From Propionibacteriales bacterium (lineage in GTDB: Bacteria > Actinomycetota > Actinomycetes > Propionibacteriales > Nocardioidaceae): a stretch of 37,927 bases of DNA. The stretch lies in the NCBI GenBank assembly GCA_009379735.1, contig WHTB01000006.1, positions 1 to 37,927 of the forward strand. The letters run 5' to 3'. Shown here one piece after another: positions 1,234-23,411 of the stretch. The position numbers were made by a program, and so were the translations under genes. The notes under the pieces are model-generated. The model saw only the letters and a program-made list of their open reading frames with translations, was not told the origin of the DNA and ran no database searches. Within the stretch, counting starts at the first letter, position 1. The number at the start of each line of letters is the position of its first letter.

Positions 1234-2631
1234 GTGCGCGCTCACGAAGCAGGAGCTCTGCACGCCGACCTGGGCTCGCGCGGCCCCTCGTGGTTGAGTG
1301 CGCCCCACGACGTCAACGCCCTGGTCGACAGCCTCTGGTCATCGACCGTCGAGCGGTCCGCTGACGGCGCCCTCAGCGTCGGCGGCATCGATGTACGACG
1401 GTTGGTCGAGCAGTTTGGCAGCCCGCTCTACGTACTCGACGAGGCCGACTTCCGCAGCCGCGCCGCCGCCTTCAGGGAGGCGTTCCCGGAGTACGACGTC
1501 TACTACGCGGGCAAGGCGTTCCTCTGCTCGGCGGTCGTCCGCTGGGCGGTCGAGGAGGGGCTGCGACTCGACGTATGCACCGGCGGCGAGCTCGCGCTGG
1601 CGCTCCGGGCCGGCGTTGATCCGACCCTGATCGGCTTCCACGGCAACAACAAGTCCGAGGCCGAGCTCGCTCGCGCCGTCGAGGCGGGAGTCGGCCGGGT
1701 GATCGTCGACTCGATGGCGGAGATCGAGCGGCTCGGCCAGATCGCGGCCGAGCGGTCGAAGGTCGTACCCGTGCTGGTGCGCGTGACCGCCGGCGTCGAG
1801 GCACACACCCACGAGTACATCGCGACCGCGCACGAGGACCAGAAGTTCGGTTTCTCCATCGCAGAAGGCGATGCGCTCGAGGCCGTACGTCGAGTCGCCG
1901 CCGCCGACGGGCTCGAGCTGCTGGGCCTGCACTCGCACATCGGTTCACAGATCTTCGACACGTCCGGGTTCGAGGTCGCCGCCCGCCGGGTCCTGGCCCT
2001 GCACGCGCGGATTGTCGCCGAGCTCGGGGTCGTCCCGCCCGAGCTCGACCTCGGTGGCGGGTTCGGCATCGCGTACACGACCCAGGACGACCCGCAGGAC
2101 CCGAAGACGCTGTCCGAGGGGATCTCGCGGATCGTCGACCACGAGTGCCGCGCTCTGGGTATCGACCGGCCACGGCTGTCGATCGAGCCCGGACGCGCGA
2201 TCGTGGGCCCGTCCACCTGCACCGTCTACCGGGTCGGCACGGTCAAGCGGGTCGCCCTCGACGCCGGGGCGTCCCGGCTGTACGTGTCCGTGGACGGCGG
2301 GATGAGCGACAACATCCGCACCGCCCTGTACGACGCCGACTACTCCTGCACCCTCGCGTCCCGGTCGTCGTCGGCGTCGGCGGTGCTCGGCCGGGTCGTC
2401 GGCAAGCACTGCGAGGCCGGCGACATCCTGGTCAAGGACGAGTTCGTCCCGTCCGACGTGACGGCGGGCGACCTGCTCGCCATCCCCGGCACCGGCGCCT
2501 ACTGCCGGTCGATGGCCTCCAACTACAACCATGTCCCGCGGCCGCCGGTGGTGGCCGTCCGTGACGGGCAGGCCGGTCTCGTAGTCCGGGGGGAGTCAGA
2601 GGACGATCTGCTGCGGCTCGACGTACTGTGA
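1234..2631 (+). CDS. lysA: Diaminopimelate decarboxylase
   Basis: PLP enzyme that decarboxylates meso-diaminopimelate to L-lysine, the last step of lysine synthesis. The 465-residue protein is a fold-type III decarboxylase. The PLP-binding lysine is K94 in YYAGKAF. Further signatures are GFHGNNKS, LHSHIGSQ, the glycine-rich phosphate loop DLGGGFGIAY, EPGRAIVGPS, DGGMSDNIR and the C-terminal GAYCRSMASNYNHVPRP. The GTG start at 1234 is supported by the actinobacterial LysA N-terminus (RAHEAGALHAD) and by the 2-nt gap after argS. It opens an aspartate-family block with hom, thrC and thrB. No separate promoter or attenuator was seen ahead of it. Confidence 0.97.
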   Translation: MRAHEAGALHADLGSRGPSWLSAPHDVNALVDSLWSSTVERSADGALSVGGIDVRRLVEQFGSPLYVLDEADFRSRAAAFREAFPEYDVYYAGKAFLCSAVVRWAVEEGLRLDVCTGGELALALRAGVDPTLIGFHGNNKSEAELARAVEAGVGRVIVDSMAEIERLGQIAAERSKVVPVLVRVTAGVEAHTHEYIATAHEDQKFGFSIAEGDALEAVRRVAAADGLELLGLHSHIGSQIFDTSGFEVAARRVLALHARIVAELGVVPPELDLGGGFGIAYTTQDDPQDPKTLSEGISRIVDHECRALGIDRPRLSIEPGRAIVGPSTCTVYRVGTVKRVALDAGASRLYVSVDGGMSDNIRTALYDADYSCTLASRSSSASAVLGRVVGKHCEAGDILVKDEFVPSDVTAGDLLAIPGTGAYCRSMASNYNHVPRPPVVAVRDGQAGLVVRGESEDDLLRLDVL

Positions 2632-6287: not shown

Positions 6288-8153
6288 GTGACTGAACAAA
6301 CCATCACCACCTCCTCGCCAGCCGGTTCACCGGCGACCGACGACTCCGGTGCCGCAACGACTGACGCGCCACGTCGACGGAAGGGAAGTGGTCTCTCCGC
6401 CATGCTGCTGCCCGAGCTGAAGCAGCTCGCCGGCAGCCTTGGCATCAAGGGCACCGGCGCCATGCGCAAGGGCCAGCTGGTCGAGGCGATCCAGGCCGCC
6501 CAGGGCGGTGGAGCGAGCGCTCCCGCCCGTGCCGAGCCGTCGCAGAAGCCGTTCGACAAGCCCGCTGAGAAGCCGGCTGACACGTCGTCTGGGAAGCAGG
6601 CCGAGAAGGCCGACTCGCCGAAGGGCGACGACCAGGCCCGTGACAAGCAGGCCCATGACAAGCAGCACGACGACGCCGACGGCGACGGTAACCGCGATGG
6701 GGGCAACCAGAACCAGCAGCGCAACCGTGACAGTAACCGTGACGGTGGCGGCAACCAGAACCAGCAGCGCAGCCGTGACGGTGGCGGCAACCAGAACCAG
6801 CAGCGCAACCGTGACGGTGGCAACCGGGACGGGGGCGGCAACCGTGACGGTAACCGTGATGGGGGCAACCGGGACCGAGACGACGAGCGCGGCGGACGCC
6901 GGCGCCGTCGGGGCCGTGACCGCTACCGCGACCGTGACAACCGCGGTGGCGGCGGCCGCGGAAACGAGGCCGAGCCCCAGGTGTCCGAGGACGACGTCCT
7001 GCTCCCGGTGGCCGGCATCGTCGACATGCTCGACAACTACGCGTTCGTCCGCACCAGCGGCTACCTGCCCGGCCCGGACGACGTCTACGTCGCCATGTCG
7101 ATGGCCCGCAAGTTCGGGCTCCGCAAGGGTGACGCCGTTACCGGACAGGTGCGCCAGGCCCGGGAGGGCGAGCGTAAGGAGAAGTTCAACCCCCTGGTCC
7201 GGATCGACACCGTCAACGGCGCCGACCCCGAGAACGCCAAGCAGCGGGTGGAGTTCTCCAAGCTGACCCCGCTGTACGCCGCCGACCGGTTGCGGCTCGA
7301 GACCGAACCCGGCGTCCTGACGACCAGGATCATCGACATCGTCGCGCCGATCGGCAAGGGCCAGCGCGGCCTGATCGTGTCGCCGTCGAAGGCCGGCAAG
7401 ACCCTCATCATGCAGGCGATGGCGAACGCCATCACGACCAACAACCCCGAGTGCCACCTGATGGTGGTGCTGGTCGACGAGCGGCCGGAAGAGGTCACCG
7501 ACATGCAGCGCGCGGTCAAGGGTGAGGTCATCGCCTCCACCTTCGACCGGCCGGCCGATGACCACACCACCGTCGCGGAGCTCGCCATCGAGCGGGCCAA
7601 GCGGCTGGTCGAGCTCGGCCACGACGTCGTCGTACTCCTCGACTCGATCACCCGGCTCGGCCGTGCCTACAACCTGGCGGCTCCCGCCAGCGGGCGCATC
7701 CTCTCCGGCGGTGTCGACTCGTCCGCGCTCTACCCGCCGAAGAGGTTCTTCGGTGCTGCGCGCAACATCGAGGACGGCGGCTCGCTGACCATTATCGCGA
7801 CCGCGCTGATCGAGACCGGCTCGAAGATGGACGAGGTGATCTTCGAGGAGTTCAAGGGCACCGGCAACATGGAGCTGCGGCTGCGTCGGGAGTTCGCCGA
7901 CAAGCGGATCTTCCCGGCCATCGACGTGGACGCCTCGGGCACCCGCCGCGAGGAGCTGCTGATGAGCAAGGACGAGCTCGCGATCGTGTGGAAGCTGCGC
8001 CGCGTGCTCTCCGGTCTCGACGGCCAGCAGGCACTCGAGCTGTTGCTGAACAAGCTCAAGCAGACCAAGAGCAACATCGAGTTCCTGATGGAGGTCAACA
8101 AGACCACCCCGGTGGCCGGCAACCGCCGCGACCGCGACAGCGACGACGGCTGA
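6288..8153 (+). CDS. rho: Transcription termination factor Rho with low-complexity insertion
   Basis: Hexameric RNA-dependent ATPase that ends transcription. The GTG start at 6288 is chosen because GGGAAGG (6274-6280) sits 7 nt upstream; it gives 621 residues, well above the ~420 of E. coli Rho. The protein begins with a SAP-like Rho_N helical segment (LLPELKQLAGSLGIKGTGAMRKGQLVEAI). From about residue 98 to 228 it has a disordered insertion rich in Gly, Asn, Gln, Arg and Asp, with NQNQQ-containing units repeated three times. The cold-shock-like RNA-binding domain follows, then the ATPase core with Walker A (SPSKAGKT), Walker B (VVVLLDSITRLGRAYN), the Q-loop/R-loop region (FKGTGNMELRLRREFADKRI) and VDASGTRREELL. 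A strong hairpin follows the gene. Confidence 0.97.
   Translation: MTEQTITTSSPAGSPATDDSGAATTDAPRRRKGSGLSAMLLPELKQLAGSLGIKGTGAMRKGQLVEAIQAAQGGGASAPARAEPSQKPFDKPAEKPADTSSGKQAEKADSPKGDDQARDKQAHDKQHDDADGDGNRDGGNQNQQRNRDSNRDGGGNQNQQRSRDGGGNQNQQRNRDGGNRDGGGNRDGNRDGGNRDRDDERGGRRRRRGRDRYRDRDNRGGGGRGNEAEPQVSEDDVLLPVAGIVDMLDNYAFVRTSGYLPGPDDVYVAMSMARKFGLRKGDAVTGQVRQAREGERKEKFNPLVRIDTVNGADPENAKQRVEFSKLTPLYAADRLRLETEPGVLTTRIIDIVAPIGKGQRGLIVSPSKAGKTLIMQAMANAITTNNPECHLMVVLVDERPEEVTDMQRAVKGEVIASTFDRPADDHTTVAELAIERAKRLVELGHDVVVLLDSITRLGRAYNLAAPASGRILSGGVDSSALYPPKRFFGAARNIEDGGSLTIIATALIETGSKMDEVIFEEFKGTGNMELRLRREFADKRIFPAIDVDASGTRREELLMSKDELAIVWKLRRVLSGLDGQQALELLLNKLKQTKSNIEFLMEVNKTTPVAGNRRDRDSDDG
6690..6880 (+). 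repeat. Repeats encoding the Asn/Gln/Arg/Asp-rich Rho segment
   Basis: In-frame repeats inside rho. The unit GCAACCAGAACCAGCAGCGC or a close variant starts at 6703, 6751 and 6787 (spacings 48 and 36 nt, multiples of 3), interspersed with AACCGTGACGGT-like units. They encode NQNQQRNRD/GGGNRDGN-type peptides. The spacing suggests growth or loss by slippage without a frameshift. Confidence 0.85.
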
Positions 8154-21063: not shown

Positions 21064-21516
21064 ATGCCGGTCTGGGCCATCGTGCTCGACGTGATCGGTG
21101 TCTGTCTGCTTGCCCTCGTACTCGCCGCCGTCTATCTGGTCGGCCGCCGACGTCTGTTGGCACGCCACGGCGGCACCTTTGATCTCAGCATCCGCGTCCG
21201 GTCCGAAAGGGCCGGGCGCGGATGGGTTCTCGGCGTCGGTCGCTACACCGGCGACCGGCTCGAGTGGTTCCGGATCTTCACCCTGAGCGTGCGGCCGAAG
21301 CGCGACCTGAACCGCCGGCTGCTGCAGATCGAGGGTCGGCGTGACGTCGCGGGGACGGAGGAGTTCGCGCTGTACGACGACGCCGTCATCGTGCAGTGCA
21401 GGTATGGCGGCGAGTCGCTGGAGCTCGCGCTGTCCGACAACGCCCTGACCGGTCTGCTCGCCTGGCTCGAGGCCGCGCCGCCAGGCCCCTCCTCCGGCTA
21501 CCAGCTCCGCACCTGA
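21064..21516 (+). CDS. DUF2550 membrane-anchored protein
   Basis: A 150-residue protein with one N-terminal transmembrane helix (about residues 3-25, WAIVLDVIGVCLLALVLAAV), a basic stop-transfer region (GRRRLLARHGG) and a compact, probably PH-like beta domain (WVLGVGRYTGDRLEWFRIF...LYDDAVIVQCRYGGESLELAL). It matches the DUF2550 family, which lies directly after atpC in many actinobacteria; its function is not established. The RBS GAGGAGCGAGG precedes the ATG. The spacer after it holds the repeat array at 21532, which separates it from its usual neighbour, the cobalamin adenosyltransferase gene. Confidence 0.85.
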   Translation: MPVWAIVLDVIGVCLLALVLAAVYLVGRRRLLARHGGTFDLSIRVRSERAGRGWVLGVGRYTGDRLEWFRIFTLSVRPKRDLNRRLLQIEGRRDVAGTEEFALYDDAVIVQCRYGGESLELALSDNALTGLLAWLEAAPPGPSSGYQLRT

Positions 21517-21531
21517 CCGGTCACCCCCAAA

Positions 21532-21627
21532 TTCCTCGCGCCGAGGTTGCGCGTATGTCCCGTTTCCTCGCGCCGACATTGCGCCTATGTCGGGTTTCCT
21601 CGCGCCGAGGTTGCGCGTATGTCCGCG
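21532..21627 (+). repeat. Left array: three tandem copies of a 32-bp repeat
   Basis: Copies start at 21532, 21564 and 21596 with an exact 32-bp period. Copies 1 and 3 are identical over TTCCTCGCGCCGAGGTTGCG and beyond to ATGTCC. Copy 2 differs at the centre (GACATT for GAGGTT) and at a few later bases. Each contains a dyad, CGCGC-N7-GCGCG or GCGC-N7-GCGC in copy 2. The array begins 16 nt after the DUF2550 stop and ends 62 nt before the next gene. Inverted copies lie on the far side of that gene at 22689-22750. Confidence 0.92.
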
Positions 21628-21689
21628 CATACTCGGCTGCCTGTGGATGACGGACGCCATGAATCGGCCGACGCGAGCATCATCGGGCG

Positions 21690-22682
21690 ATGGACATCTT
21701 CACCTGGACCCAGTGGCTGGCAGCCGGCCACACGCGTCAGGCCCTGATCCAGGCGCTAACCGCTGGCGAGATCCGTCGTGTGCTGAGGGGCGTCTACGCC
21801 GACAGCGGTGTTCCCGACGTACTCGAGAACCGGGCTCGCGCAGTGCGGCTGGTGCGGCCGAGCGAGACCGTCGTCGCTCGGGAGACTGCCGCGTGGCTGT
21901 CAGGGATGGATGTGCTTCCCCCGGGTCGCCGGATCGAGGACGAACCGCTGCACCTGGTCATGCCGAGGTCCGTGACGCCGCCACGGCTTGAGGGATGCAA
22001 GGCGTACCAGGGGCAGTTGCCGGCCGAGGATGTCGTCGAGCATGACGGGATCCGCCGAACGACCGACCTGCGGACCGCGCTTGACCTCGGTCGGTTTCGC
22101 GATCGCGAGCAGGCGGTGGCCGCGCTCGACGCGTACCTGCACCTGGAGCGGGTGACCCTCGAGGAGCTCTGGGGCCGGGCTCGGCTGCTCCGTCGGGTGC
22201 GCAACTGCCGTCGGCTGCGCGCCAACCTTGCTGTTGCCGATGGCGGCGCCGAGTCGTACGCAGAGAGTGCCCAGCGGGTGCTGTTCGTCGACGCGGGACT
22301 GCCGAGACCGAAGACCCAGGTCCCGGTCAACGGGCTGGCGGGCGACCTGATCGGTTTGCTCGATATGGGGTGGGTGGCCTACCTGGTCGGATCGGAGTTC
22401 GACGGCGAGGTTGGCCACGACGACGACGAGCAGCGCGACCACGACGATGGGCGCCGCAGCCGGATGCGCCGCGAGGCAAAGTGGGCGATCGAGGTTGCCC
22501 GCAAAGGGGATCTGTGGGGGAGTCCTGCGCAGCTCGTGCACACCGTCGCCCAGCGGTTGGTGGAGCGGGGGTGGTCACCGCCGTCGGCCGTGCTCGAGCA
22601 GATCGTGCGCGCGGCTGAGTACGAGGCGACGACTGGCGAGCGTTGGCGGTGGATGCCGCTGGAGCGGCTGCTCGCGGCATGA
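21690..22682 (+). CDS. AbiEi-type winged-helix plus DUF559/Vsr-like nuclease-fold protein
   Basis: A 330-residue protein of unproven function. The N-terminal part (residues 1 to about 85) resembles the AbiEi-type antitoxin/regulator winged helix: FTWTQWLAAGHTRQALIQAL, then TAGEIRRVLRGVYADSGVPD, then the region around ETAAWLSGMDVLPP. The C-terminal part from about residue 185 resembles DUF559/Vsr-like restriction-endonuclease folds: Glu188/Glu192 in AESYAESAQRVLFVDAGLP, then Asp225 in GLLDMGWVAY and Glu236/Asp238 in SEFDGEVGHDDDEQ, followed by an Arg-rich segment. Such single-gene fusions are common in actinobacteria and often annotated as AbiEi-family proteins; no cognate AbiEii nucleotidyltransferase toxin is adjacent. 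RBS is weak. The gene stands alone between inverted 32-bp repeat arrays, which suggests a transferred unit or self-binding sites. Confidence 0.7.
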   Translation: MDIFTWTQWLAAGHTRQALIQALTAGEIRRVLRGVYADSGVPDVLENRARAVRLVRPSETVVARETAAWLSGMDVLPPGRRIEDEPLHLVMPRSVTPPRLEGCKAYQGQLPAEDVVEHDGIRRTTDLRTALDLGRFRDREQAVAALDAYLHLERVTLEELWGRARLLRRVRNCRRLRANLAVADGGAESYAESAQRVLFVDAGLPRPKTQVPVNGLAGDLIGLLDMGWVAYLVGSEFDGEVGHDDDEQRDHDDGRRSRMRREAKWAIEVARKGDLWGSPAQLVHTVAQRLVERGWSPPSAVLEQIVRAAEYEATTGERWRWMPLERLLAA

Positions 22683-22688
22683 TCGGAC

Positions 22689-22750
22689 GGACATAGGTGC
22701 AACCTCGGCGCGAAGAATGGGGACATTCGCGCAACCTCGGCGCGAAGAAA
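22689..22750 (-). repeat. Right array: two inverted copies of the 32-bp repeat
   Basis: Reverse-complement copies start at 22689 and 22721 (period 32). Shared core read on the minus strand: TTCGCGCCGAGGTTGC. The outer copy has the CGCGC-N7-GCGCG dyad intact. The array starts 6 nt after the AbiEi/DUF559-like gene and ends 9 nt before the stop of the minus-strand adenosyltransferase gene, so it fills almost the whole spacer. Confidence 0.9.
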
Positions 22751-22759
22751 AGAACTGGG

Positions 22760-23347
22760 TCAGTCCTTGGATTGGTGGGCGCCGCCGGGCTGCCAGAGGA
22801 CGTCTCCGCCGCGGCCGAGGTTGGCGTGCCGGGCCAGGATGAACAGCAGGTCGCTGAGCCGGTTGAGGTAGGTGATCGCCAGCTGGTTCATCGACTCCCC
22901 GTGCTCGTCGTAGGCCGCCCACGCCGACCGCTCGGCGCGCCGGGTGGCCGTGCACGCGACGTGCAGCAGCGCTGAACCCGAGGTGCCGCCCGGCAGGATG
23001 AACGAGCGCAGCTTCTCCAGCTGGTCGTTGTACTCGTCGCACCAACCTTCGAGCCGGTCGATGTACGACTGGGTGACCCGCAGCGGCGGGAACTCCGGGT
23101 CCGCCACGACCGGCGTCGAGAAGTCGGCCCCGACGTCGAACATGTCGTTCTGCACCTGGGTCAGCAGCTCGGCCACGCCCGGGTCGAGATCGCCAAGGGC
23201 CAGCGCCACACCGAGGTGTGCGCTCGCCTCGTTGACGTCGCCGTACGCCGCGACGCGGGCGTCGGTCTTGCGGGTCTGGCTCATATCGCCGAGGCGGGTC
23301 GCGCCGGCGTCGCCGGTCCTGGTGTAGATGCGGGTGAGGTTGACCAT
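22760..23347 (-). CDS. ATP:cob(I)alamin adenosyltransferase, PduO type
   Basis: Transfers the adenosyl group of ATP to cob(I)alamin, making adenosylcobalamin, the cofactor of the mutase encoded just downstream on the other strand. ATG 23347 gives 195 residues starting MVNLTRIYTRTGDAG; a 19-residue upstream extension in frame is not family-like. The ATP-binding N-terminus is TRTGDAGATRLGDMSQTRK with DARVAAYGDVNEASAHLG. The trimer/active-site region is FILPGGTSGSALLHVACTATRRAERSAW, followed by YLNRLSDLLFILARHAN. The five-helix bundle is complete. It is transcribed away from the STAS and mutase genes, so coordination would need a shared divergent control region. Confidence 0.92.
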   Translation of the reverse strand: MVNLTRIYTRTGDAGATRLGDMSQTRKTDARVAAYGDVNEASAHLGVALALGDLDPGVAELLTQVQNDMFDVGADFSTPVVADPEFPPLRVTQSYIDRLEGWCDEYNDQLEKLRSFILPGGTSGSALLHVACTATRRAERSAWAAYDEHGESMNQLAITYLNRLSDLLFILARHANLGRGGDVLWQPGGAHQSKD

Positions 23348-23377
23348 GGCGCCAGCGTAGGCCGTTGCGACCGACGA

Positions 23378-23411
23378 AACCGTTCGGCGTGAGACTGCAA
23401 CCATTCGGCGT
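23378..23411. promoter_or_regulatory. Direct repeat pair in the divergent adenosyltransferase-STAS region
   Basis: AACCGTTCGGCGT (23378-23390) and AACCATTCGGCGT (23399-23411) are 12/13 identical and exactly 21 bp apart, two turns of the helix, in the 125-bp region between divergent genes. This geometry suits a dimeric regulator on one face of the DNA. The regulator is not known. Confidence 0.4.

Follow-up and report, generated by a model that had tools for sequence, protein, structure and literature searches.

The locus described here raises the question of why a single gene, situated between two conserved neighbors, is enclosed by inverted arrays of a 32-bp repeat, and whether the protein it encodes is itself connected with that repeat. 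The window (the whole stretch of DNA that was analyzed) comprises 37,927 nt of contig WHTB01000006.1 (GCA_009379735.1) from a Propionibacteriales bacterium of the Nocardioidaceae, the genome of which (G000) is 4.5 Mb in 483 contigs. The answer we favor, and regard as probable, is a REPIN-RAYT-like system based on an unrelated nuclease, in which the enclosed protein binds its cognate repeat unit and drives its spread.

Organization of the Locus

The left array (21532..21624, forward strand) consists of three direct units with a 32-bp period (core TCGCGCCGAGGTTGCGC..TATGTCC), located at 21532-21560, 21564-21592, and 21596-21624, with start-to-start distances of exactly 32 and a TRF score of 151. 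The right array (22689..22749, reverse strand) contains two inverted units at 22689-22717 and 22721-22749, again spaced by exactly 32; these coordinates confirm the arrangement of three direct and two inverted copies described in the first-pass annotation. The two arms (21532-21591 and 22690-22749) are 87% complementary over 60 nt. Between them is an intact reading frame of 330 aa (21690..22682, forward strand) that encodes an AbiEi-like winged-helix N-terminal part and a DUF559/Vsr-like nuclease C-terminal part, and a CTGTGGA element (CTGTGGATGAC; 21641..21647, forward strand) is located 49 nt upstream of its start codon.

The flanking genes lie outside the element. On the left, the stop codon (21516) of the conserved DUF2550 gene (21064..21516, forward strand) is followed by the left array after 15 nt, and on the right, the array ends ∼10 nt from the stop codon (22760) of a conserved, convergent gene for a PduO-type cobalamin adenosyltransferase (22760..23404, reverse strand). 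Gene calls and profile searches revealed no recognized transposase between or beside the arrays in the window, as had been noted from the sequence. No AbiEii nucleotidyltransferase adjoins the enclosed gene, whose neighbors are DUF2550 and PduO with no further gene between. Elsewhere in the window (6698-6875), there is an imperfect 36-bp tandem repeat of the type GGCAACCAGAACCAGCAGCGCAACCGTGACGGTGGC, with a score of 153-167.

The Enclosed Protein

The AlphaFold2 model of the window protein is confident (pLDDT 93.9, pTM 0.91). The N-terminal part matches the folds of the AbiEi antitoxin (6y8q; E 7.5e-6) and Rv2827c (1zel), and the PADLOC AbiEi model matches the protein with an E-value of 1.5e-13, so that the AbiEi-like assignment of the first reading stands. 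Both AbiEi and Rv2827c recognize cognate tandem/inverted repeats of 23 bp in their own promoters, with neither protein binding the repeats of the other (PMC7319586).

The nuclease-like part that had been proposed for the same protein is below threshold when the window protein is taken alone (MTES_1575; E 0.038, 14.5 bits, below the curated Pfam cut-off of 38.2 bits), and is recovered through its homologs: of those aligned, 22 of 29 match PF18741 (E ≤ 0.01) and 9 of 29 match DUF559. Residues E192, E236-x-D238, H243, and D252 are invariant in the 29 homologs, and D225 is present in at least 90%; E192, E236, D238, H243, and D252 are putative catalytic residues. The resulting motif, E..D..ExD....H..D, resembles the EDxHD/Vsr-like type, and EDxHD is a recognized homing endonuclease family (PMC6083498). 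A fold search among viral proteins returned weak DUF559-like matches only.

Dispersal of the Repeat in the Source Genome

The repeat is dispersed throughout the genome: there are 216 copies of the 21-nt core with up to three mismatches (reversed control, 0), and 344 copies of the 17-nt core with up to two mismatches (control, 2). Across 41 contigs of this genome (0.49 Mb), 163 of 197 units are intergenic, though intergenic sequence makes up only 17% of the total. Of 86 close pairs of same-strand neighbors in these contigs, 64 have a spacing of 32 bp, and among neighbors within 150 nt the strand switches from + to - 34 times and from - to + 4 times; the basic object is therefore an inverted cluster, composed of +n units and then -m units. 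These clusters occur mostly 10-40 nt from a stop codon, and 17 of the 36 that were classified are found between convergent genes, as compared with 72 of 339 gene pairs overall, with all of these placements being approximate because genes were called with a simple GC3 script. A rule that the unit follows the stop of a gene on its own strand suits many arrays, although not all.

Inverted unit pairs fold as strong hairpins (z -5.6 to -11). The distances from + to - units cluster at 31-33, 41-44, 50-54, 61-63, and 83-86, with a best period of ∼10.9; none of 5000 jittered sets was as strongly phased (26 of 5000 when distinct values were counted once). Unit periods among the homologs are 21-22 and 32 bp, with one of 17, and are mostly near whole helical turns. 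Taken together, the helically phased spacings and these periods point to arrays that are bound by protein as duplex DNA.

Guide arrays of the CRISPR or TIGR type were ruled out, as the units follow one another as near-perfect tandem repeats, with no unique spacers between them, and no known RNA family in Rfam matches the repeat. Three arrays in this genome (L008:10006-10196, L016:1491-1743, and L046:3853-4011) have exactly 141 nt between their + and - units, and at least the L008 and L016 arrays share a similar ∼95-nt hairpin-like insert mid-array, in opposite orientations.

Co-occurrence of Unit and Gene Across the Family

Among 342 family genomes, a close ortholog of the window protein (E ≤ 1e-60) is present only in G000 and in G003, a member of another genus, and the expanded unit is also restricted to these two genomes, with 307 and 416 copies, respectively, and 0-6 in each of the remaining genomes. 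The association of unit with gene, and the dispersal of the unit, are thus directly observed. The first-pass annotation had counted genome-wide scattering of the repeat with no link to genes of this kind against its own reading; half of this applies, in that the scattering is real but the link to the gene is strict.

The G003 ortholog (63% identity, with one in-frame TAG) is located between nicotinamidase and LuxR-type regulator genes, away from the DUF2550 site, and is again enclosed by arrays (two + units on the left, three - units on the right). In the DUF2550-PduO gap of G003 there is a gene-free inverted cluster, and in ∼10 other relatives these two genes are 31-86 bp apart, with neither array nor gene between them. 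The module is therefore absent from this site in relatives, as the first-pass annotation had anticipated, and does not occupy the same place in all of them. Comparison of G003 with stretches of G000 gave 13 ortholog-like matches, with no informative orthologous array site among them.

Homologs and Their Private Units

Homologs were identified at 30-39% identity, and in a set of 97 (which includes a few near-duplicate loci), 71 have inverted repeats on both flanks (score ≥ 15), as compared with 0.6% for a null of mismatched cross-locus flanks and 0 of 30 for DUF2550 as a control gene. This substantiates the earlier suggestion that the repeats consistently flank genes of the AbiEi/DUF559 family. 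A typical array has a 21-22-bp period, with + copies on the left and - copies on the right. Further homologs, mostly with inverted arrays of their own, were recovered from Aeromicrobium, Mumia, Miniimonas, Cellulomonas, and Kineococcus in a contig scan using subgroup alignments. Those without flanking repeats are mainly members of a Kribbella clade or loci that are cut by contig ends. Because the Kribbella clade (∼12 homologs) carries the protein without flanking arrays, the protein can persist in their absence.

The array sequence differs from gene to gene, and paralogs within one genome carry different units (G025, G019, and G028). Genome-wide dispersal of a unit was seen in five genomes; private units reach 73 copies in Mumia sp. 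zg.B17, 66 in G025, and 150 in Miniimonas arenae, with other genomes near background. The more similar two proteins are, the more similar their units tend to be (Mantel rho 0.30, 0 of 999 permutations; rho 0.16 for a reverse-orientation control).

The element upstream of the window gene recurs in 68 of 97 homolog upstream regions, compared with 1-2 in control stretches. As CTGTGGA(C/T)(A/G)AC, noted for 57-68 homologs, it is located at position -49/-50 from the start codon in most homologs, including Kribbella homologs that have no arrays. It resembles a DnaA box (TGTGGAYAA). Distant homologs at four loci (L199, L201, L203, and L204) have partly self-palindromic inverted repeats (e.g., TGGATGTTTACCATGTAAACATGGTAAACATCC) and not 22-bp tandem arrays. 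Pairs of + and - arrays are also present around native genes, including PduO beside DUF2550 (Mumia sp. zg.B17), MsrB, and a dihydrofolate-reductase-like gene (G025), at loci L171, L181, and L167. Because ordinary native genes such as PduO and MsrB are bracketed in this way, bracketing is not sufficient by itself to identify a mobile unit.

Presence and Absence Between Congeners

Seven array sites of Mumia sp. zg.B17 were compared with the same intergenic sites in congeners, which are empty, rearranged, or occupied by a short cluster of the unit belonging to that species; several of the empty sites are without any unit. Arrays therefore differ in presence between congeners, and the enclosed gene occupies a different site in another genus. 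In G143, the arrays bracket an AbiEi-DUF559 gene relic with an internal deletion (tblastn E 4.5e-6; L238, about 1730-2040, reverse strand) that ends in LGMTPLPRRW-stop, and three congeners hold arrays only at the same site. Such a pattern would be expected if an autonomous element decays into, or seeds, non-autonomous arrays. No target-site duplication was seen in these comparisons, in which the empty sites are cross-species only and too divergent to place the ends to the base, and no excised intermediate was seen. In Mumia xiangluensis (G059, L248), an orthologous gap is filled by a different dispersed palindromic repeat (CCGCTGGTCGAGGCGCGAAGCGATCGAGACC).

A Probable Repeat-Spreading Element and Its Alternatives

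In the reading that we favor, the window would contain the gene-bearing copy of a repeat-disseminating element, and the enclosed protein would be the cognate enzyme of the repeat. The AbiEi-like winged-helix part would recognize the ∼22-bp units (of 32-bp period here) in duplex form, with several copies along one helix face; molecules on the left (+) and right (-) arrays would then join, pairing the two inverted arms, and the DUF559/Vsr-like domain would cut or nick the DNA at the array. The inverted array, rarely together with the gene, would be moved, or copied, into further sites, mainly just past stops between convergent genes. Solo +n/-m clusters would represent the non-autonomous form and a gene between arrays the autonomous form, and each lineage, as well as each paralog within a genome, would own a unit that changes along with its protein. 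Such a model of binding, joining, and spread agrees with the size of the binding site, the phasing, the rule for orientation, the pairing of unit and cognate protein, and the pattern of presence/absence; the binding, cutting, and copying themselves are inferred. Against this reading, the G003 gene has its in-frame stop although repeats are abundant in that genome, the Kribbella proteins persist without arrays, native genes are bracketed as well, and neither a target-site duplication nor an excised intermediate was seen. We also know of no nuclease of the DUF559/Vsr-like fold that acts as a stand-alone transposase; TnsA, a related restriction-like nuclease, needs TnsB.

The closest parallel is the REPIN-RAYT system, in which a low-copy enzyme gene is bracketed by inverted short repeats with hundreds of dispersed extragenic copies, many of them hairpin-capable inverted pairs, and lineage-specific repeat families are tied to one enzyme (PMC3116915, PMC8266576). 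In the element described here, too, inverted copies of a short repeat enclose the gene, further copies occur throughout the genome in inverted pairs, and every repeat family goes with a single lineage of the enzyme. It differs in having an AbiEi winged helix and a DUF559/Vsr-like nuclease instead of an HUH/Y1 (PF01797) protein, in its mostly non-palindromic units, which are arrayed in tandem every 21-22 or 32 bp, the inverted arms being helically phased, and in its occurrence in Actinomycetes. The window protein matches AbiEi and MTES_1575 models only, and because the defining HUH enzyme is absent, the element is not a member of the REPIN-RAYT group.

An unlikely alternative is that the protein is mainly an AbiEi-like DNA-binding autoregulator with an operator-array regulon, the arrays beside its gene being operators and the dispersed arrays being regulatory, chromosome-organizing, or terminating, and spread by other means such as recombination or gene conversion. 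In its favor, AbiEi and Rv2827c have 23-bp tandem/inverted sites in their own promoters (PMC7319586), helical phasing suits stable binding to a duplex, and the strong hairpins are positioned at the 3' ends of convergent genes. However, the arrays flank both ends of the gene, with the right array downstream of its stop, the nuclease-type residues are invariant, complete modules are found at sites that are not orthologous, arrays come and go within a single genus, and each paralog has a private unit. With AbiE systems the element has in common the N-terminal DNA-binding fold (6y8q, 1zel) and a unit size close to the known 23-bp sites. It has no AbiEii beside the window gene, its protein extends C-terminally as a nuclease-like domain, and arrays lie on either side of the gene and by the hundreds elsewhere; it is not an AbiE toxin-antitoxin system.

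Also unlikely, and slightly more so, is a homing or selfish nuclease that cuts the chromosome near the unit, such that break repair copies the arrays and occasionally the gene, with no true transposition chemistry. The EDxHD/Vsr-like motif and the G143 gene relic, at a site that holds only arrays in congeners, are consistent with this possibility. Homing copies a gene into allelic sites, whereas hundreds of gene-free arrays at non-homologous sites predominate here, and several empty sites are without any unit. The likeness to DUF559/MTES_1575/Vsr-like endonucleases, including EDxHD, extends to the nuclease-like domain and the conserved E, D, ExD, H, and D residues, but no member described in the open-access literature searched is tied to a dispersed cognate repeat.

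The first-pass annotation viewed the module as a small cargo cassette, perhaps moved by a trans-acting enzyme or by recombination between repeats. A passive defense or cargo cassette mobilized in trans by an IS or RAYT enzyme is very unlikely, despite the matching PADLOC AbiEi models and the presence in G000 of one IS200-like Y1_Tnp gene (C33:29765-30130), which is intact and the sole one in that genome; one in G003 is broken. We do not take such mobilization as the main explanation, since four of the six array-bearing genomes tested (G025, G032, G058, and G059) have no Y1_Tnp (PF01797). In addition, it is one gene family that is enclosed repeatedly, each time with a gene-specific unit, its protein combines a DNA-binding part with a nuclease-type motif, and no AbiEii toxin neighbors the window gene. 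Insertion sequences and MITEs share with the element a gene between inverted terminal sequences, short gene-free derivatives, and presence/absence at orthologous sites, but the element has no known transposase family, its ends are multi-copy tandems, and no target-site duplication was seen in the cross-species comparisons. Finally, coincidence, in which the gene merely lies inside one region of ordinary convergent-gene terminator palindromes, has almost nothing to recommend it beyond the excess of clusters between convergent genes, given the all-or-none co-occurrence of unit and ortholog and the 71 of 97 flanked homologs against a 0.6% null.

Implications for the Actinomycete Family

The module looks like a previously undescribed kind of repeat-spreading genetic element. 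No prior description of AbiEi-DUF559 proteins with repeats was found in the open-access literature, which is weak evidence, as subscription journals were outside the scope of the search. A broader proposal, for which we consider the chances to be even, is that Actinomycete AbiEi-DUF559 proteins in general drive an interspersed-repeat class of their own, each protein recognizing and spreading its own 21-32-bp unit, with several such pairs per genome and the proteins assembling on helically phased inverted arrays as a new transposition machine.

In bacteria, REP-type interspersed repeats are known to be linked to one enzyme class, the RAYTs, and the element, if our reading is true, would be an independently evolved, non-homologous counterpart to them. 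It would provide dozens of natural protein/unit code pairs, several per genome, that are directly testable. A large Actinomycete family whose current annotation is AbiEi antitoxin or DUF559 nuclease would be reassigned, and the lineage-specific repeat arrays found between convergent genes would be explained.
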